Source: Myxococcales bacterium
GTDB taxonomy: Bacteria > Myxococcota > Myxococcia > Myxococcales > JAJYLH01
Direction: 5' to 3'
Assembly: GCA_021787845.1 (NCBI GenBank)
Contig: JAJYLH010000007.1
Span: 62,001-126,000, forward strand
Length of the DNA stretch: 64,000 nt
The notes beneath the pieces were generated by a model. That model was not told the origin of the DNA. It ran no database searches and saw nothing but the letters and a program-made list of their open reading frames with translations. This document shows, piece by piece, positions 31,307 through 38,700 of the stretch (position 1 is its first letter; each line of letters begins with the position of its first letter). The position numbers and the translations under genes are program-made.

Positions 31307-32911
31307 CTAGCCGCCCCAGATGCGCCGGATCGAGGCGAAGAGCCCGCCGCCCCGGGGCGGCTCGGCGGCGCTCTGCTCGGCCGCGCGCCGGGCCATCTCC
31401 TCGTTCCAGGCTTCCTTGAGCGACTGCGGGGTGTCCTTGGTCGCGAGGAGCACTTCTCGCGCGGCACCCGTCGTGCCCTCCGCGGTCACCCGGAGCATGC
31501 ACTCCTCGTCGACCTGGAAGGTCACCTTCCTGCCCCCAAGGTCGGGCGCGAACCGGAGGGTCCCCAGGTACTCGTTGTCGACGATCTGCTCGGCCTCGCC
31601 CTGGAACACGTCCAGCTCGACGTCACCGCTCTTGGCGGGCGGCAGCCGGAAGCTCTTCGCCGTCGGGATGCTCGCGTTCTTCTCGATGATGCGCCGGAAC
31701 CGCCCGCCCGGGAGGGCGATGCCGATGGGCACCGAGAGCACGTCGACCAACGTGACCGCGTCCTCCTCGTGCAGGCTCTCGCCCAAGAGCGCCGCGCCCA
31801 GCGCCACCGACTCGTCCGGGTGCACGCCCTTGCGCGGGAGCTTGCCGAAGTACTGGTGGGTCTTGCCCTGCACCAGCGGCATGCGCGACTGCCCGCCGAC
31901 CAGGAGGACCTCCCGCAGGTCGGTCGGGCGCAGGCTCTCCTCGGCGAGGAGGTTGCCGACCACCTGGAAGGTGCGGTCGACCAGGTCGCCGGTGAGGGCG
32001 TTGAGCTTCTCGCGCGAGAGGGCGATCCGCAGGTCGACGGGCTTGCCCCTCCGGCTCTCGATGTACGGCAGCTCGATCATCACGTTCGCCATCATCGACA
32101 GGTCGATCTTGGTGGTCTCGGAAGCGCTCTTGATCCGCTGCAGCGCTATCGGAGAGGTCGCGAGGTCGATGCGGGTCTGCCGCCGGAACTCCTCCAGCAC
32201 GTAGTCGATGATGCGGTTGTCGAAGTCGACCCCGCCGAGGAAGGTGTCGCCGCCCGTCGCCACCACCTCGAAGACGTTGCCGTGGAGCTGGAGGATGCTG
32301 ACGTCGAAGGTCCCGCCGCCCATGTCGTAGACCAGGATCTTCTGGTCGAAGCCGCGGTTGAACCCGTAGGCGAGCGCGGCGGCGGTCGGCTCGTTGATGA
32401 TGCGCTTGACGTTGAACCCGGCGAGCTTGCCCGCCTCCTTCACCGCCGCCCGCTGGCTGTCGGTGAAGTACGCCGGCACCGCGATCACCGCGTCCTCGAT
32501 CGGCTCCTCCAGGAACGCCTCGCTCACCTTCTTGCAGTGGCTGAGGATGTGGCTCGAGACCTCGGGGATCGACTGGACGGTGCCGCCCAGGTTGACCGCG
32601 CAGCCGCCGTCCTCGCCCTCTACGATTTCGTACGAGAAGTACTTGCGCAGCTCCTCCACGGTCTTCGAACGGAACTGCCGGCCGATCAGCCGCTTGACGC
32701 CGTAGACCGTGTTCTTCGGGTTCGTGACCATCTGGTCCTTGGCCACGTTGCCGACGAGCAACTCGCCCTTGGTCGACTTCGCCACCACCGACGGGAGCAC
32801 GAGGCTCCCCTTGTCGGTCGGGACGCAGCGCGGGACCTTGCCCTTGACGTAGGCGACGCAGGTGTTCGTGGTTCCGAAATCGACGCCGAGGGTGATGGGC
32901 TTTGCGCTCAT
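31307..32911 (-). CDS. Hsp70/DnaK-family chaperone, short paralogue
   Basis: 534 residues from ATG 32909-32911. The ATPase domain is complete: [16 protein letters not shown] (phosphate 1), [39 protein letters not shown] (phosphate 2), [12 protein letters not shown] and [14 protein letters not shown] (adenosine). The substrate-binding beta domain follows (about 390-495), but the helical lid of full DnaK (about 640 residues) is reduced to about 35 residues ending in SIRRIWGG. No dnaJ or grpE nearby, so it is not the housekeeping copy. Myxobacteria carry several such paralogues (e.g. SglK, known). A transposon is inserted 93 bases upstream of its start. Confidence 0.9.
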
Positions 32912-33004
32912 GGCCGGTTCACGGTCGTCTCGAGAACACCCGCTCGACTCAGCGGTCCAGATCCTCAAGGCTATCCGACGCGGCCTGCGGCCAGCAACAA
33001 ACCG

Positions 33005-33012
33005 ACCCGGAC
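33005..33012. repeat. Left target-site duplication of the transposon
   Basis: ACCCGGAC, identical and in direct orientation to 38153-38160, immediately outside the left terminal inverted repeat. Eight bases is within the range known for IS1-family insertion. Confidence 0.9.
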
Positions 33013-33029
33013 GGTGTTGGTCGGTTTTG
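33013..33029 (+). repeat. Left terminal inverted repeat
   Basis: GGTGTTGGTCGGTTTTG, 17/17 match to the reverse complement of 38136-38152. Similarity stops just inside (GATTTCC on the left against AAGTAGC on the right). Confidence 0.93.
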
Positions 33030-33074
33030 GATTTCCGCTCGCCGGGCCGGCCCTCGCGAGCTACGTTGGCCGGC

Positions 33075-33404
33075 ATGGACCACCCGACCCCCAGCGCCGC
33101 CCCCGTTCTCGACCCGGCCGGCATCCCGGCGCTCACTGAAGCCATCGCTCACCTGCACGGCGCCCGTGCCCGGTTCGTCGAGTGGGTCCGAGTGGCCGAC
33201 ACCTTCCAGGGCGCCCCGGTGTTCGACACCACCGTCGGGGTGTTCGAGCTTACCGGCTTCGCCGCCGCTCAGCGCGCGTATGCCTGGAGCGAACCCGCCG
33301 GGGGGAAGCGCCGCCGCTTCTTTGCCGTGCTGCACGCGCCGCCGGTGGACGGCCCGCTTGCCGCCGTCCGGGCGAGCATCGCGAAGGATGCGCGGAGCCA
33401 TTAG
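33075..33404 (+). CDS. Hypothetical transposon-borne protein, 109 aa
   Basis: First gene inside the left end, ATG at 33075-33077, about 45 bases from the inverted repeat. It encodes a compact alpha/beta-looking protein: IPALTEAIAHLHGARARFVEWVRV, FDTTVGVFELTGFAAAQRAYAW, then GGKRRRFFAVLHAPPVDGPL. Length, lack of low complexity and a sensible codon pattern support a real gene. No recognised family. Its TAG overlaps the TAA of the opposing 81-residue gene by two bases, a tail-to-tail arrangement. Confidence 0.5.
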   Translation: MDHPTPSAAPVLDPAGIPALTEAIAHLHGARARFVEWVRVADTFQGAPVFDTTVGVFELTGFAAAQRAYAWSEPAGGKRRRFFAVLHAPPVDGPLAAVRASIAKDARSH

Positions 33405-33646
33405 TCTTTCTTTAGGTATTTTTCCCACGGGCGCGGATTGCGAGGCGTGGGCGCCGGTGACGAGGCTGGCGGCAGCGCCTTCGGCTTAGGGCCGGGGCGA
33501 TACTTCGCCATGAGTTTCATCACGTCGTCTGCCACGGGCTCGACGGCGGCCATGATCTGCGGGTTGCCGGACGCGCCCGTGTTCTCGATGTTGGCCCGTT
33601 CCCCTTCCTGGGCGAAGTGCATCCCAGCAAGTTCAAGGCTCGACAT
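33401..33646 (-). CDS. Hypothetical transposon-borne protein, 81 aa
   Basis: Minus-strand ORF with an ordered N-terminal half (SLELAGMHFAQEGERANIEN, then MAAVEPVADDVMKLMAKYRP) and a Pro/Lys-rich tail ending PWEKYLKKD. Its Lys/Glu/Asn content differs from the Arg-rich translations of non-coding frames here, supporting reality. Weak ribosome site (ACAGG). A second in-frame Met lies at residue 9. Function unknown. Confidence 0.45.
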   Translation of the reverse strand: MSSLELAGMHFAQEGERANIENTGASGNPQIMAAVEPVADDVMKLMAKYRPGPKPKALPPASSPAPTPRNPRPWEKYLKKD

Positions 33647-33742
33647 CCTGTCGCGGGCGTTCCCTTCTCCTTCTCGGGTCGCGAGAATCTGACGGTGCCC
33701 GGTGCCCCCAACCGCATCAAGTCGTTTGCCAGGAGGCGACCG

Positions 33743-33898
33743 ATGCTAGAGAGCAAAAGCGAAAACGCAAGCAAGGCGTTGACCGTCGTATTCGAACCCG
33801 GTGGTCCCGACGCGAAGGTCCGCATCACCCCGGACGGAAGGTTCGTCGCCATCGACGTGCTCGGGGCGCTCGGACAGGCCGATCCCGGTCGAACGTAG
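33743..33898 (+). CDS. Hypothetical small protein, 51 aa
   Basis: ATG 33743 is preceded by a perfect AGGAGG with good spacing, the main reason to call it. The product runs from SKSENASKALTVVFEPGG into KVRITPDGRFVAIDVLGALG, a beta-rich stretch. Not recognised. Lies upstream of the structured non-coding region on the same strand. Confidence 0.5.
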   Translation: MLESKSENASKALTVVFEPGGPDAKVRITPDGRFVAIDVLGALGQADPGRT

Positions 33899-34049
33899 CG
33901 TGCGATAGTGGGAAGAAGAGACGCTGGGCCGGGCGATTCGCCGCTCGGCCCTCTCGGCCCGCGTCAGGGCCTCACGCCTTTTTTTGCGAGGGGCCGGAAT
34001 TGCACCCAGGCAGGCTCTCGCACGTCGATCCTCCTCCAGAACCTTCAAC

Positions 34050-34142
34050 TTCGACTTGCGCGCAGACGGGTTCTAGTGCAGGATCGTGGCGCCCCCACCG
34101 GGTGGCACCACATCCTGCGGCATCTACGCCGAAAAGTGGTCC
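34050..34142 (+). ncRNA. Candidate small RNA in the transposon left arm
   Basis: The gene-free stretch 33899-34178 contains TTCGAC (34050-34055), 17 bases, CTAGTG (34073-34078) as a possible promoter. A long interrupted stem follows, GCAGGAT (34078-34084) pairing with ATCCTGC (34112-34118) and containing GTGG/CCAC and GCC/GGC. The intrinsic terminator at 34143-34177 comes next. Promoter, stem and terminator in a row would give an RNA of roughly 90 nt. Purely sequence-based; the stem could instead be protein-bound DNA. Confidence 0.3.
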
Positions 34143-34177
34143 GGCCCTGGGCGTTCCCGCGCCCGGGGCCTTCTTTT
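34143..34177. terminator. Hairpin terminator between convergent units
   Basis: GGCCCTGGGCG (34143-34153) pairs with CGCCCGGGGCC (34160-34170), one mismatch, loop TTCCCG, followed on the plus strand by TTCTTTT. It lies just beyond the stop of the minus-strand 138-residue gene, so it may serve both strands. Confidence 0.65.
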
Positions 34178-34178
34178 G

Positions 34179-34595
34179 CTACCCCTCCTTCTTCTCTTGG
34201 AGCGGTAGCGTCGCCGTTCCACGCCGCGCCCGGTAGGCGTTCCGCTTTCCAGGCACGGCCTCGATACGAGCCGTCTTCTTCCGGGCGGTCCGATTCACCT
34301 CCGCCGCCAAGCGTCCGGGTCGAAGGTTCTCGGCGCCGAGTTCCTTGGCGATGTCCTTCACACCGAACACGCGGCCCGGCTGAGCACACAACAACTCTTC
34401 GATGCGTTGCGGGAGCGATGGGGCCGCCGTGCCTGACTTGGGATTCGGAACCGCTGCCGCTCTGCTCGCTGGCGCCGCCTCGCTTTGCGGCGGCGCTGCT
34501 GCTTGGCGCTTGCGCCCGAAGTGGCGCTCAAGCTCTTCGAGTGTCCCGCTCCATTCAAGTCGTCCGTCCGGGAACTCGGTGACTGTCAGGCCCAT
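34179..34595 (-). CDS. Putative winged-helix DNA-binding protein, 138 aa
   Basis: ATG at 34593-34595 with a strong AAGGAGGGAG site. N-terminal 36 residues form a small domain (MGLTVTEFPDGRLEWSGTLE, then ELERHFGRKR), followed by an Ala/Pro-rich linker. C-terminal residues about 66-130 look like a winged helix: LPQRIEELLCAQPGRVFGVK, DIAKELGAENLRPGRLAAEV, then a basic wing RTARKKTARIEAVPGKRNAY. Divergent from the transposase operon across a 333-base region full of palindromes, so it is a good candidate for the element's regulator (inference). No exact family recognised. Confidence 0.6.
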   Translation of the reverse strand: MGLTVTEFPDGRLEWSGTLEELERHFGRKRQAAAPPQSEAAPASRAAAVPNPKSGTAAPSLPQRIEELLCAQPGRVFGVKDIAKELGAENLRPGRLAAEVNRTARKKTARIEAVPGKRNAYRARRGTATLPLQEKKEG

Positions 34596-34635
34596 GCGTG
34601 CTCCCTCCTTGCCGCTGGTCCTTTTAGCGCCCCCG

Positions 34636-34790
34636 CTGGCGGCCGTCAACCGCCAGTTTCTTCTCCGCCAGAAGCGGTGTTGGCGGAATCTTGGCCAAGG
34701 TCCACAAAACGTACGGGAAAGGCCGTTTTGGTGCGTCAGCATCGCCAGTCTTGGCACGACGAGTGCCAAGACTCGTGGCATCATGCCACG
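34636..34790. promoter_or_regulatory. Cluster of palindromes between divergent transposon genes
   Basis: CTGGCGG/CCGCCAG (34636-34656) with more TGGCGG half-sites up to 34685. Then CTTGGCAC-GACGA-GTGCCAAG (34750-34770) and CGTGGCAT-C-ATGCCACG (34774-34790), both perfect 8-bp inverted repeats sharing TGGCA. They lie between the 138-residue gene and the transposase promoter, the expected place for operators. No gene occupies 34596-34928. Confidence 0.55.
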
Positions 34791-34866
34791 CAACGGCGAC
34801 GGCACGGGCCGCCACTCACACAAACGCCTTGTTTTCCGGGGTTTTCAACTATTTTCGCCCTTCCCC

Positions 34867-34894
34867 TTGACACCCGCTAATTTCCGCTTACAAT
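34867..34894 (+). promoter_or_regulatory. Consensus sigma70 promoter of the transposase operon
   Basis: TTGACA (34867-34872), 16-base spacer, TACAAT (34889-34894). The best promoter match in the window; transcription would start near 34901, about 28 bases before the transposase ATG, leaving room for the CGGAGAG ribosome site. Confidence 0.75.
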
Positions 34895-34928
34895 AACCGT
34901 CCAAGAGGGTGGGGGACGGAGAGCGGCG

Positions 34929-35759
34929 ATGGCGAAGGAAAAGCAGGTGGCGATCCTCCGGGCGCTGAGCGAGGGCATGGGCATCCGGGCGACGGAGCGG
35001 CTCACCGACACCTCGCGCGAGACGGTGCTCTCGTTGCTCGTGCGCGCGGGCGAGGGATGCGAACGGCTGCACGACCGCCTCATGGTCAACCTGCCGTGCC
35101 GGCTGCTTGAGCTTGACGAGATTTGGGGCTACGTCGGGAAGCACCAGCGCTTCTGCACAGAGAAGGACGATCCCGCGCGCGTGGGCGATTTCTGGACGTG
35201 GACCGCCCTGGACCCGGAGTCGAAGCTCGTGCCGAGCTACCGCGTGGGCAAGCGCGACGGCGAGACGGCCAACGCCTTCGTCGCGGACCTCGCCGCACGC
35301 CTAGCGGGACGGGTGCAGCTTAGCAGCGACGGTCTTGTTGCCTACGTGGACGCCATCGAGAAGGGCTTTGGCGGGACCGCCGATTACGCTCAGGTGGTTA
35401 AAGACTACGTGGCCGAACCCGCCGGCGAGGGCCGCTACAGCCCGCCGCGCGTGAGCCACGTGTTCAAGGAGGCGATCAACGGCTCCCCGAACATGCGCTT
35501 CGCCACCACGTCGCACGTCGAGCGGCTGAACCTTTCGATCCGCATGGAGAACCGGCGGCACACGCGCCTGACGCTCAGCTACTCGAAGAAGTTAGCGAAC
35601 CACAAGGCCGCGACGGCGCTCTTCTTCGCGCGCTACAACCTTTGCCGCGTCCACCATTCGCTGCGCGTCACCCCGGCGATGGATGCCGGCGTTGCCGACC
35701 ACGTGTGGAGCCTCGAAGAGCTGCTCGACAGCGCTCTTGCCAAGCCGGAGGCCGCATGA
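34929..35759 (+). CDS. IS1-family transposase, single-ORF type
   Basis: 276 residues. N-terminal helix-turn-helix (residues about 5-40, KQVAILRALSEGMGIRATER then LTDTSRETVLSLL). DDE catalytic core: LELDEIWGYVG (Asp63), WTWTALDPESKLVPSYRVG, LSSDGLVAYVDAI (Asp134) and TSHVERLNLSIRMENRR (Glu198), then SYSKKLANHKAATALFFARY and LRVTPAMDAGVADHVWSLEE, the hallmark C-terminus of IS1-like transposases. Unlike IS1 InsAB' there is no separate zinc-finger ORF and no frameshift is needed. All three acidic residues and full length indicate an active enzyme. Its stop overlaps the ATG of the RHH gene (ATGA), placing it at the head of the restriction-modification operon. Confidence 0.9.
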   Translation: MAKEKQVAILRALSEGMGIRATERLTDTSRETVLSLLVRAGEGCERLHDRLMVNLPCRLLELDEIWGYVGKHQRFCTEKDDPARVGDFWTWTALDPESKLVPSYRVGKRDGETANAFVADLAARLAGRVQLSSDGLVAYVDAIEKGFGGTADYAQVVKDYVAEPAGEGRYSPPRVSHVFKEAINGSPNMRFATTSHVERLNLSIRMENRRHTRLTLSYSKKLANHKAATALFFARYNLCRVHHSLRVTPAMDAGVADHVWSLEELLDSALAKPEAA

Positions 35760-35986
35760 GCGCGACGGCGGACAAGCGCGGACCGGGAAGGCCACCGCTC
35801 GGCGAAGGCAAAGCGAAAGCGGTGGTGCTCTCCCTGCGGTTCACCGAGGGCGAGGTCCGGGCGATGGACCGCGCGGCGCGTGCGGCGGGGAAGGCGCGCT
35901 CCACGTGGGCGCGGGAAGCCGTGGTGCGCGCGGCCCGCGCCACCGCGTCCGACCCCCATGCTACAACGTCGGACCAGGAGGCGTGA
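35756..35986 (+). CDS. Ribbon-helix-helix-like small DNA-binding protein, 76 aa
   Basis: ATG overlaps the transposase stop (ATGA at 35756-35759). N-terminus DKRGPGRPPLGEGK contains a GRP AT-hook-like motif. Then AVVLSLRFTEGEVRAMDRAA and RAAGKARSTWAREAVVRAAR fit a beta strand followed by two helices, the Arc/MetJ/CopG fold. Such proteins are usually autoregulators. It ends two bases before the vsr ATG. Fold assignment by pattern only; target unknown, with the palindromes upstream of the transposase as obvious candidates. Confidence 0.6.
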   Translation: MSATADKRGPGRPPLGEGKAKAVVLSLRFTEGEVRAMDRAARAAGKARSTWAREAVVRAARATASDPHATTSDQEA

Positions 35987-35988
35987 GC

Positions 35989-36462
35989 ATGGCGGGAGCG
36001 CTGCCGCAAACCGAGACGCGGCGTCGCGATCCGCTATCGCCAGCGGCGCGAAGCGAGCGGATGAGCCGCGTGCGCGCGGTGGACACGGGGCCAGAGTGGA
36101 CCGTTCGACGGCTCCTTCATCGGCTCGGCTTCCGATACGCGATTCACGTTGCGGACCTTCCGGGGCGCCCGGACATCGTGTTTCGCTCACGGCGCAAGGC
36201 GGTTTTCGTTCACGGCTGTTTCTGGCATCGCCACGCGGCGAAGTCGTGCAAGCTCGCGCGGTTGCCCAAGTCGCGGCTCGACTTCTGGTTGCCGAAACTG
36301 GAACGGAACCACGAGCGCGACCGCGAGGCGTTGGCGGCCCTTCGAGAACTCGGGTGGAGCGCGCTCGTGGTGTGGGAGTGCGAGCTACGGGACAGCGGCG
36401 GTCGCGCGCGCGACCTCACCCGCGTCGAGCGCCGCCTTTGCCGCTTTCTGGAGAACCCATGA
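35989..36462 (+). CDS. vsr: Very short patch repair (Vsr) endonuclease
   Basis: 157 residues, the size of E. coli Vsr (156). Motifs: LPGRPDIVF with the catalytic Mg-binding Asp62; VFVHGCFWHRH (73-82) with catalytic/zinc His and Cys; RNHERDREALAALRELGW; and LVVWECEL. Vsr nicks 5' of the T in T:G mismatches created by deamination of 5-methylcytosine, limiting mutation caused by C5 methyltransferases. AGGAGG precedes the ATG at 35989-35991. The stop overlaps the methyltransferase start (ATGA at 36459), tying production of the two proteins together. Confidence 0.95.
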   Translation: MAGALPQTETRRRDPLSPAARSERMSRVRAVDTGPEWTVRRLLHRLGFRYAIHVADLPGRPDIVFRSRRKAVFVHGCFWHRHAAKSCKLARLPKSRLDFWLPKLERNHERDREALAALRELGWSALVVWECELRDSGGRARDLTRVERRLCRFLENP

Positions 36463-37709
36463 TGAGGGCCATCGAGCTTTTCGCCGGCGCGGGCGGACTT
36501 GGGATGGGCGTCTCGGCCGTCGGCTTTGAGCACGCCGCCGTCGTCGAGTGGAACCGCGACGCCTGCGCGACGCTCCGCGAGAACCAGGCGCGCAAGGTGC
36601 GGCCGGTCTTCAAGTGGCCGGACATCTACGAGGGCGACGTGCGTGCCTTCGACTTCTCGAAGCTCGGCACGATCGATCTCGTGGCCGGCGGCCCGCCATG
36701 CCAGCCGTTCTCGCTTGGCGGCAAGCATCAGGCGCACCGCGACCGGCGAGACATGTGGCCGCAAGCCGTGCGCGCTGTCCGCGAGTTACGGCCGCGGGCG
36801 TTCCTCTTCGAGAACGTGCGTGGCCTCACTCGGCAGACGTTCGCCGAATACTTCGAGCACATCCGCCTTCAACTCGCGTTCCCGGAATTCGAGCGCCGCG
36901 CGTTCGAGGAGTGGCCGGAACACCGCGAGCGTCTCTTGCGCCACGCCGCTGAGAAGCCGCGCGACGGCCTTCGGTACGACGTTTTCTTCAAGGTGCTGAA
37001 CGCCTCCGACTTCGGCGTACCGCAGCGTCGGGAGCGCGTTTTCGTGGTCGGCTTCCGAAGCGACCTTGGCATCCGGTGGGCCTTCCCGACGCCCACCCAT
37101 TCGCATGAAGCGCTGCTCTGGACCCAGCGCCACGATGGCGAATACTGGGATCGGCACGGTGTTTCCCGGCGCGCGCGAAAGGCGCTCATCAACTGGACGG
37201 AACCGCTCTTGCCCCCATCTTCGGCGTGCAGCCCGTGGCGCACCGTCCGCGACGCGCTTTCGGGCTTGCCCGAACCAAAGGACAGAGACGCCCCCGGCGT
37301 CCTTAACCATCGGCTACAACCCGGCGCGAAGCCATACACTGGGCACACCGGCAGCGCTCTTGATGAGCCGGCCAAGACATTGAAGGCGGGCGTGCATGGC
37401 GTGCCGGGCGGCGAGAACATGCTCGCTTATCCCGACGGGCGCGTCCGGTATTTCAGCGTGCGCGAGAGCGCTCGGCTCCAGACGTTCCCGGACGATTACG
37501 CCTTTCGGGGAGCGTGGGGCGAAGCCATGCGCCAGATCGGGAACGCGGTTCCCGTACGCCTCGCTAGAACGGTGGCGATGGCCGTGAAGAAAGCGATCAC
37601 TTCGGCGGATACTTCGCATCCCACGCACTCACACGAACTCCGGGTCGGCCCGACCCCGGCACGTGGCCCCCAAAACCGCTCTTGTTCCACTCCGGCTTGT
37701 AGTGGTTGA
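36459..37709 (+). CDS. DNA (cytosine-5) methyltransferase
   Basis: 416 residues. Motif I ELFAGAGGLGMG (6-17), motif IV GGPPCQPFS with catalytic Cys81, motif VI ENV (118-120), motif VIII QRRERVFVVGF, and motifs IX/X RESARLQTFPDDY and QIGNAVPVRLA. Between VIII and IX lies a target-recognition region of about 110 residues. It transfers a methyl group from S-adenosylmethionine to cytosine C5. Starts MM at 36459, overlapping the vsr stop. The last about 37 residues (ADTSHPTHSHELRVGPTPAR onward) are encoded antisense to the end of the restriction gene and look non-conserved. Paired with an Eco29kI-type enzyme, the likely target is CCGCGG (inference). Confidence 0.95.
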   Translation: MMRAIELFAGAGGLGMGVSAVGFEHAAVVEWNRDACATLRENQARKVRPVFKWPDIYEGDVRAFDFSKLGTIDLVAGGPPCQPFSLGGKHQAHRDRRDMWPQAVRAVRELRPRAFLFENVRGLTRQTFAEYFEHIRLQLAFPEFERRAFEEWPEHRERLLRHAAEKPRDGLRYDVFFKVLNASDFGVPQRRERVFVVGFRSDLGIRWAFPTPTHSHEALLWTQRHDGEYWDRHGVSRRARKALINWTEPLLPPSSACSPWRTVRDALSGLPEPKDRDAPGVLNHRLQPGAKPYTGHTGSALDEPAKTLKAGVHGVPGGENMLAYPDGRVRYFSVRESARLQTFPDDYAFRGAWGEAMRQIGNAVPVRLARTVAMAVKKAITSADTSHPTHSHELRVGPTPARGPQNRSCSTPACSG

Positions 37710-38040
37710 TCAGGGCGCTCTCTGCCGATGCGGCGACCCACTCTTCGCCGTCGGTGTCGATGACGAGGTAGCGACACCACATCTCGGAAACGTCGATGTT
37801 CCGTCGGCCGCCTATTTTCCTCGCGTGCTCGCTCAGGCGTCTGGCCAGGGTGATTTTCGTAGCTTTTCCGACGTACACCGGCTTTTTCGCTGTGTTCTCA
37901 ATATAGAGCGCGTAGACGCCGAGCAATTCCGGGGCCTCGTGGCTCAAGAGCGGGTGCATCGGCGAGCGTTCGAACTGGTCAAGCGCCTGCTCTCGGTAGG
38001 CGAGCGCGATGTTGAACGTGAATCGGTGCCGGTCGCACAT
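37597..38040 (-). CDS. Eco29kI-family GIY-YIG type II restriction endonuclease
   Basis: 147 residues from ATG 38038-38040; a GTG at 38088 would add 16. Motifs: GVYALYIENTAKKPVYVGKA (GIY-YIG written GVY...YVG), ARRLSEHARKI (catalytic Arg region), CRYLVIDTDG, AESALINHYKPEWNKSGFGG with the metal-binding Glu and Asn, then HVPGSGRPGVRVSAWDAKYP. That last motif matches the GFGxHxPGxGR...S-WD..HP end of Eco29kI-like enzymes (family knowledge), which cut CCGCGG. Slightly shorter than Eco29kI (214 residues). Converges on the methyltransferase and overlaps it by 113 bases. The cognate partner is therefore obvious. No clear Shine-Dalgarno at either start. Confidence 0.85.
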   Translation of the reverse strand: MCDRHRFTFNIALAYREQALDQFERSPMHPLLSHEAPELLGVYALYIENTAKKPVYVGKATKITLARRLSEHARKIGGRRNIDVSEMWCRYLVIDTDGEEWVAASAESALINHYKPEWNKSGFGGHVPGSGRPGVRVSAWDAKYPPK

Positions 38041-38135
38041 GGGCGCAGCATCGCCCGCGTCCGCTGCCGAGCACAATTTTTCGACCACTCGGCGGGTCGG
38101 CCGGTAGCGCTAACTCGCCTGCCAGCCCGCTACTT

Positions 38136-38152
38136 CAAAACCGACCAACACC
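38136..38152 (-). repeat. Right terminal inverted repeat
   Basis: CAAAACCGACCAACACC, the exact reverse complement of 33013-33029. About 95 bases upstream of the restriction gene start, so any promoter for that gene lies between the start and this end, or within it. Confidence 0.93.
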
Positions 38153-38160
38153 ACCCGGAC
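38153..38160. repeat. Right target-site duplication of the transposon
   Basis: ACCCGGAC, exact direct repeat of 33005-33012. The next host feature, the ybaK stop codon, is 15 bases further on. Confidence 0.9.
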
Positions 38161-38175
38161 GGGGTCGACCGAACG

Positions 38176-38655
38176 CTAATCCGGCTTGTCGCGGGCGATG
38201 GCGCCGACCGTGGCGCCGGTCGCGCGCAGGTAGTCGGCCGGCGCGAGGACGAGTTGGGTCCCGCGAACGCCAGCGCTGAGCGCGACGCGGTCGAACAGCT
38301 CCATCGTCTCGTCGGCGAAGACCGGGTACCTCTTCTTCGCCGCGAGCGCGGTGACGCCGCCCCGGACGTAGCCCGTCAAGGGCTGCACCTCCTTGAGCGC
38401 GACCATCTCGACCTTCCGGTCGCCAGCGAGCTTGGCAAGAGCCCTCAAGTCCAGCTCGGTGCCCGCCGGCACCACCGCGAACAGGACTCCCCGTCTCTCG
38501 CCGAGGCAGACCAGCGTCTTGAACACCTGCTCCGGCGGCAGCCCGACCTTGCGCGCGACCGACTCGGCCGACAGATCGCTCTCGTCGACCGCGTAGTCGC
38601 GCAGCTCGTAGCCGATGCCGAGCGAGTCGAGGAGGCGCGCGGCGTTCGTCTTCAT
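38176..38655 (-). CDS. ybaK: YbaK/EbsC family Cys-tRNA(Pro) deacylase
   Basis: 159 residues from ATG 38653-38655 (CAGGGAAAG upstream). Features: FKTLVCLGERRGVLFAVVPAG with the conserved Lys, RKVEMVALKEVQPLTGYVRGG and a final LVLAPADYLRATGATVGAIA. Enzymes of this family hydrolyse Cys mischarged on tRNA(Pro), a trans-editing quality control in the cytosol. Length is normal (E. coli YbaK 159). The gene diverges from the glutaredoxin gene (45 bases between starts). Before the transposon arrived its 3' end was about 116 bases from the Hsp70 start on the same strand. Confidence 0.92.
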   Translation of the reverse strand: MKTNAARLLDSLGIGYELRDYAVDESDLSAESVARKVGLPPEQVFKTLVCLGERRGVLFAVVPAGTELDLRALAKLAGDRKVEMVALKEVQPLTGYVRGGVTALAAKKRYPVFADETMELFDRVALSAGVRGTQLVLAPADYLRATGATVGAIARDKPD

Positions 38656-38700
38656 GGGCTTTCCCTGCACCGAAACGGGAGCGATGGCATCCTTGTCGGC

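Follow-up and report, generated by a model that had tools for sequence, protein, structure and literature searches.

Can a single small transposase related to that of the insertion sequence (IS) IS1 carry a whole restriction–modification (RM) system between its ends? This question is raised by a stretch of 64,000 nucleotides from a Myxococcales bacterium (contig JAJYLH010000007.1, positions 62,001 to 126,000; here called the window), whose host genome comprises 6.24 Mb in 153 contigs. The original prediction, made from the letters of the window, described a complete IS1-family transposon with RM and mismatch repair genes. Here, we present its ends, its genes and its relatives and conclude that the unit at 33013-38152 is very probably an autonomous cargo-carrying IS1-like transposon, i.e. 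a transporter IS (tIS), that moves a probable RM module of the Eco29kI type. Perfect ends and a target-site duplication (TSD) enclose both the transposase and the RM genes, as is typical of a tIS, and the unit would move as a whole.

Ends and target-site duplication

The unit of 5,140 bp is bounded by perfect 17-bp terminal inverted repeats (TIRs) that match in 17/17 positions, the left one GGTGTTGGTCGGTTTTG at 33013-33029 on the plus strand and the right one at 38136-38152 on the minus strand. Directly outside of them the perfect 8-bp TSD ACCCGGAC is found with the same letters at 33005-33012 and 38153-38160. All these features were found again as originally predicted, together with the full-length IS1-like transposase that they enclose. 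Shuffling this G+C-rich window also produces inverted repeats of 15-19 bp and therefore the repeat alone is unconvincing, but in combination with the duplication it is convincing. Among 544 pairs of inverted repeats in the window (at least 12 bp, 0.6-12 kb spacing) this is the only one with an 8/8 duplication, and about 5,600 pairs obtained from 20 shuffles of the window yielded a single case.

The decisive evidence for the ends is independent of the window. A position profile was constructed from 94 ends of 47 other elements, with the window left out, and both strands were scored. Within the 64 kb the best position is 38133 on the minus strand (12.8 bits) and the second 33013 on the plus strand (11.1 bits), followed by the next position with 7.6 bits; the right TIR thus ranks first and the left TIR second. 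Across all 6.24 Mb of the genome, with up to 2 mismatches allowed, the sequence of the ends is present at these two positions only. The tip columns G1, G2, T6 and G7 are 100% conserved in the 94 ends of the relatives, which are accordingly GG...TG-tipped, and the inner 11 bp of the TIR, GGTCGGTTTTG, are the same in the element of the window and in its sister L044.

The transposase would pair these GG...TG-tipped ends and, on insertion of the unit, cut the target with an 8-bp stagger, from which the duplication would result. Stagger and end use are apparent from the anatomy of this element and of many relatives, and we infer the biochemistry from them.

Relatives and their boundaries

Close relatives of the transposase (41-56% identity) are present on a second contig of the host genome and in further genomes of its phylum, as well as on plasmids of Alphaproteobacteria and within metagenome-assembled genomes. 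They also occur at 217 places in viral contigs of IMG/VR, 80 of which were fetched; such contigs can hold host DNA and presence there alone does not show carriage by phages. For delimitation similar ends were required and the best match was taken, so a few individual boundaries could be incorrect; relatives truncated at the end of a contig are not delimitable. This resulted in 64 delimited elements, the window included, with a median of 3,135 bp, and 50 of them possess a perfect TSD of 8-9 bp. Non-redundant relatives with GG-tipped ends and an exact 8-bp TSD (9 bp in two of them) number 47 and span 1.3-6.3 kb; besides these the window element as well as the phage-borne and the Sphingomonas elements bear a TSD, and the other delimited relatives show ends without exact duplication. 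No acceptable end pair with an exact duplication was found for L005, L025, L029-L032 and the fragments L019-L022, and the sole match at L087, a poor 7-bp one, was discarded. Altogether there is good evidence that elements of this lineage transpose.

Cases contrary to such a unit, for example ends mapped directly next to the transposase gene, are absent among the close relatives, and seven of the first nine have TIRs and an 8-bp TSD far outside of the transposase open reading frame (ORF). Compact elements with ends adjoining the ORF turned up only in a distant separate clade with approximately 25% identity, and comprise IS1-type elements of 1,186 bp in Meiothermus and of 1,178 bp in Deinococcus. 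The tree splits this compact group from the cargo-carrying clade, but both join on long branches and the position of the root is not firm.

Three relatives are described here in their own right. On the other contig of the host genome a second member of the lineage with cargo is located at L017:8298-11652 (3,355 bp, TSD CAAGTGAG); its transposase is 46% identical to that of the window and its cargo is different. In the Brevundimonas jumbo phage vB_BpoS-Gurke (ON529850) an IS1-like cargo element of 6,654 bp with the 8-bp TSD CGAGTGTG is located at L024:2474-9127. It lies inside a complete phage genome, adjoins a DNA polymerase gene in a region without annotation in the record, and contains, judged by sequence, an apparent arsenic-resistance set (ArsC-like, Acr3-like, GNAT). 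Finally, a Sphingomonas plasmid harbours an 8.5-kb unit (L023:1353-9876, TSD AATTAAAA) whose divergent IS1-like transposase has a cysteine-containing C-terminal extension and whose genes are annotated as an ABC-three component system and an HNH endonuclease.

Sister elements with different cargo

Together with L044, L045, L046 and L018 the element of the window forms a clade (support 98/90). All five members contain a gene for a 109-aa protein at the left end and a gene for a ribbon-helix-helix (RHH) protein directly after the transposase, and the inner part of their ends is alike. Their cargo varies: L044 contains RosmerTA-type genes and L045, among others, an acetyltransferase-like gene. Since the sisters share the backbone but carry other cargo, the RM genes are, judged from gene content, exchangeable cargo, and this constant backbone with differing cargo is the strongest argument for it. 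An odd passenger was observed at L046:6604-7611, where the ORF matches indole-3-glycerol phosphate synthase (E 4e-42).

The backbone would thus consist of the ends, the 109-aa left-end gene, the transposase and the translationally coupled RHH gene, and behind it an exchangeable slot would take up Vsr, the methyltransferase and, from the right end, the convergent endonuclease.

The restriction–modification cargo

Three genes constitute the cargo of the window element. A Vsr mismatch endonuclease of 157 aa (35989-36462, plus strand) matches TIGR00632 with 136.6 bits (cut-off 97.9) as well as the structures of Escherichia coli Vsr. It is followed by a C5-cytosine DNA methyltransferase of 416 aa (36459-37709, plus strand; PF00145 1.1e-58, PADLOC MTase_II 2e-127) whose start overlaps the vsr stop. 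On the minus strand a GIY-YIG restriction endonuclease of the Eco29kI type with 163 aa (37597-38088) was recognized by PF09517 (4.5e-19), by the structures of R.Eco29kI and by alignment. Its gene is convergent with the methyltransferase gene and their 3' ends overlap by 113 bp. In the alignments it retains the equivalents of Y49, Y76, R104, H108, E142 and N154, i.e. active-site residues that matter in R.Eco29kI (PMC1952068). The predicted complete IS1-like transposon with RM and Vsr cargo is supported, and profiles confirm the transposase and all three cargo proteins. GIY-YIG residues together with a C5 methyltransferase gene adjoining the endonuclease gene correspond to a Type II system, and so these genes probably represent an RM module of the Eco29kI type.

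The methyltransferase is 55-61% identical to methyltransferases from Vsr-M-R or M-R operons, and Vsr lies in the same range. Free-standing Vsr-M-R operons are found on plasmids of Rhizobium (pR132502) and Methylocaldum with all three genes co-directional, and their Vsr and methyltransferase share about 60% identity with those of the window. The gene order in pECO29 is R-M.

Concerning function, plasmids with Eco29kI are stable because their loss kills the cell, and post-segregational killing was measured (PMC11324026). The cargo probably serves to restrict incoming DNA and, in analogy to Eco29kI on plasmids, to penalise cells that lose the element. After loss, methylation would decay while the endonuclease, which would be expressed from a separate start close to the right end, would persist and kill the cell, and Vsr would repair deaminated methylcytosines. 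We also infer the activity of the RM module, its addictive effect, the present mobility of the element and the recent movement that had been deduced from its perfect ends.

The transposase and the other backbone genes

The transposase is encoded on the plus strand (34929-35759, 276 aa) with the catalytic residues D63, D134 and E198, which are invariant across 49 aligned sequences. Its structural model (mean predicted local distance difference test, pLDDT, 92.9) matches DDE transposases and integrases, with ISCth4 as the best hit besides Mu and TnsB. Its assignment to IS1, as originally proposed, holds in the sense of an IS1-related enzyme: the Pfam domain DDE_Tnp_IS1 is present (26.9 bits, cut-off 24.1), and 8-9-bp TSDs as well as GG...TG-tipped ends are found. 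In other respects it deviates. The NCBIfam IS1 equivalog scores 57 bits, which is under the cut-off of 100, and a single uninterrupted frame of 276 aa replaces the two-frame insA/insB' organisation. Single-frame subgroups of IS1 exist, and thus the lone frame is compatible with membership in such a subgroup. The zinc finger that precedes the helix-turn-helix (HTH) in IS1 is missing, and a finger upstream of the transposase start was ruled out because no more than 16 aa fit between the preceding stop and this start. The approximately 60-70 N-terminal residues present in the compact relatives, which contain cysteines in L027, are also absent.

A promoter-like site, TTGACA-16-TACAAT, lies ahead of the transposase (34867-34894, plus strand; 11/12 consensus) and is the sole one in the region, where 0.3 are expected. 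The RHH-type DNA-binding protein of 76 aa (35756-35986, plus strand), recognized by its sequence and by weak matches to NikA/TacA profiles, has homologues beside the transposase in 8 elements. Its start overlaps the transposase stop (ATGA). Of the translational coupling suggested previously the part concerning the transposase and its immediate neighbour stands, but this neighbour is the RHH gene and not the addiction module, the endonuclease of which is encoded on the opposite strand. Since the RHH gene recurs in sisters with other cargo, the coupling can be regarded as backbone architecture, and a translational fusion of the whole RM operon to the transposase was rejected because the RHH gene intervenes and recurs in the sisters without RM genes. 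The RHH protein is probably a regulator and would then control a shared operon with the methyltransferase as last gene.

At the left end the 109-aa protein (33075-33404, plus strand) has homologues in 9 of the 64 elements. Its model (pLDDT 85) shows a helix, four strands and a helix and has no match in the PDB, and a search of plasmids gave no match either. The coding status of the small ORFs to the right of it is doubtful; an 81-aa ORF (33401-33646, minus strand), taken from the ORF list, has a marginal match to PADLOC PDC-S13 (E 8e-4) and is weakly supported. A further ORF of 139 aa (34179-34598, minus strand) without Pfam match exhibits a winged-HTH-like C-terminus and is possibly a regulator; by eye its layout resembles ORFs of L018 and L045. 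The RNA candidates suggested earlier find no support, since a search of the element against Rfam gave nothing credible and no score near the gathering threshold.

Cargo across the lineage

ORFs were clustered over the 64 elements, and nearly all of these carry cargo, which contradicts, for this lineage, the earlier view of passenger genes as a rarity. The most frequent gene (43/64 elements) encodes a small basic protein with the pattern GG-K-G...LTP..R...A..AA..RW. Examples are located at L013:6024-6275 and L015:6042-6251; in one record it is annotated as histone H1, and in other records it is fused to a P63C-domain protein. A small HTH-like gene is found near an end in 5/64 elements. The cargo proper varies from element to element. 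ImmA/IrrE-type genes occur in 15 of the 64 elements in two clusters and score as PD-Lambda-2_B or RosmerTA RmrA; phage defence by the RosmerTA family has been validated (PMC10440598). Among the further kinds are Panacea-domain genes, ClpP-like and proteasome-like proteases and AAA ATPases. Proteasome-like (Ntn hydrolase-type) cargo recurs in L077, L108, L112, L106, L085 and L064, and the Pfam family Proteasome is matched by four A2 members as well as by L064:6470-7312. DNA methyltransferases are present in six of the 64 elements including that of the window.

By annotation, at least 28 of the 64 elements contain RM, toxin–antitoxin (TA) or defence-type genes, RosmerTA-like, PD-Lambda-2-like and Panacea genes included. 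In the cargo, 66 ORFs gave two leading PADLOC families with 12 and 10 members, and as a control 61 flank ORFs of the same loci gave a handful of matches with no family of more than one member. The cargo list was partly picked by recurrence and methyltransferases were scanned apart. From these data we tentatively propose, with somewhat less than even confidence, an undescribed and widespread clade of small IS1-like transposons, mostly of 2-6 kb, that is specialised in interchangeable immunity or addiction modules (RM, RosmerTA-like, PD-Lambda-2-like, Panacea). Its conserved backbone genes might regulate transposition or cargo exchange; in most elements this would be the basic protein of 80-110 aa (GG-K-G...ARW), and in the clade of the window the 109-aa and RHH proteins.

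Insertion site and alternative explanations

The element is inserted between an Hsp70-like gene (31307-32914, minus strand; Pfam HSP70) and a gene at 38176-38670 on the minus strand that is YbaK-like, judged by eye. G+C content at third codon positions amounts to 0.74-0.88 within the element and to 0.93-0.97 in both flanking genes. Because its codon use is unlike that of its neighbours, the element is, by sequence composition, of outside origin.

Several points weigh against an autonomous tIS with an RM module. An empty site was looked for in 117 genomes of the same order, as had been recommended, and the flanking genes are present there but not joined as here. No close second copy of the element was found, the nearest transposase being 56% identical. 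The endonuclease has 163 aa compared to 214 in R.Eco29kI and stops shortly behind the conserved W-D-x-x-x-P; because it is short and the C-terminal stretch is absent, its activity is uncertain. Its identity to relatives is only 34-36% in comparison with 55-61% for the methyltransferase and Vsr, and because of this lower value it may represent a separate addition, possibly of different specificity. The recognition site is likely CCGCGG, an assignment made by homology alone, and avoidance of it in the flanks is mild (64 seen, 82 expected). Although CCGCGG is the most under-represented palindrome composed of G and C only in the flanks, and occurs once in the element with 4.7 expected, these values are too weak to interpret and avoidance was rejected as evidence for the site. 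Finally, the enrichment of defence cargo rests on a small control and has to be read as an indication, not as a measured enrichment.

That the element is decaying or immobile, i.e. that only its anatomy is kept and transposase or RM module no longer function, is an unlikely explanation, though the likeliest of the alternatives. It would fit with the single copy in the genome and with an endonuclease devoid of the C-terminal residues of Eco29kI-type relatives, but the main ORFs are all open, catalytic residues are retained, and ends and TSD have no mismatch. Even less probable is that the ends belong to a smaller IS1-like element into which the RM genes were inserted later by other means, so that ends and cargo never transposed together. 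Third-position G+C is indeed lower in the cargo genes (0.77-0.79) than in the transposase and the left-end gene (0.87-0.88), and the convergent endonuclease resembles known Vsr-M-R operons less than the methyltransferase and Vsr do. In contrast, cargo is bounded by perfect ends in nearly all relatives, each with a TSD of its own, which makes joint movement of cargo and ends the usual condition in this lineage, and the repeat search revealed no nested second pair of ends. An ordinary chromosomal RM island that happens to lie within an inverted repeat can practically be dismissed despite the repeats of similar length in shuffled windows, as it is contradicted by the first and second rank of the ends under a profile derived from other elements, by the perfect TSD, by ends unique genome-wide and by the enclosed IS1-like transposase.

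Relation to known systems

The autonomous transporter IS favoured here resembles the IS1 family (ISfinder) in its DDE_Tnp_IS1-related transposase, GG-tipped ends and 8-9-bp TSDs, but has 5.1 kb with cargo instead of approximately 0.7-1.2 kb. The ISMhu11 subgroup of IS1 in ISfinder reaches approximately 4.6 kb. From the compact relatives L026-L028 (L026 and L028 approximately 1.18 kb) it differs by a single-frame transposase that lacks their N-terminal extension.

Transporter IS are known in several IS families, e.g. IS1595, and share with the window element IS ends and a lone transposase that moves passengers unrelated to transposition. What distinguishes the latter is its place in an IS1-like lineage whose members regularly carry cargo and share accessory backbone genes. 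The tIS concept itself was stated before (PMC7986276, PMC9330008), and transporter elements and mobile RM systems are already known (PMC7986276, PMC9330008, PMC3031569). Eco29kI and the Vsr-M-R operons of Rhizobium pR132502 and Methylocaldum have the same GIY-YIG endonuclease family, C5 methyltransferase and Vsr, but here the endonuclease is convergent instead of co-directional, shorter and more divergent, and the module lies inside a transposon. For PaeR7I, an RM-dependent selection of integrations linked to IS1 or IS5 was described (PMC3031569), and there too RM and IS collaborate and selection acts against failure to keep the RM genes. In that case the IS stands apart as a partner in the chromosome, whereas the RM genes of the window lie with a single transposase inside one pair of ends. 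Tn7-like transposons are likewise mobile elements whose cargo is often defensive (PMC8649781). The lineage of the window has one small transposase, no TnsA/B/C, 2-6 kb in length and mostly one small module each. A literature search found no description of IS1-like elements with RM or TA cargo. New appear to be the scale and the pattern, i.e. cargo as the rule, frequent immunity and addiction genes and shared accessory genes of the backbone.

Biological meaning

One transposase and two ends make a simple vehicle that would move single immunity or addiction modules among chromosomes, plasmids and phages. Such a vehicle helps to account for the spread of these genes and for their entry into defence islands. 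Due to the sharp ends the sequence itself shows where an element begins and stops, and uncharacterised genes that occupy the cargo slot are candidates for new defence or toxin–antitoxin systems. The RM-carrying member is suited for a direct test of whether addiction cargo raises the retention of the transposon.

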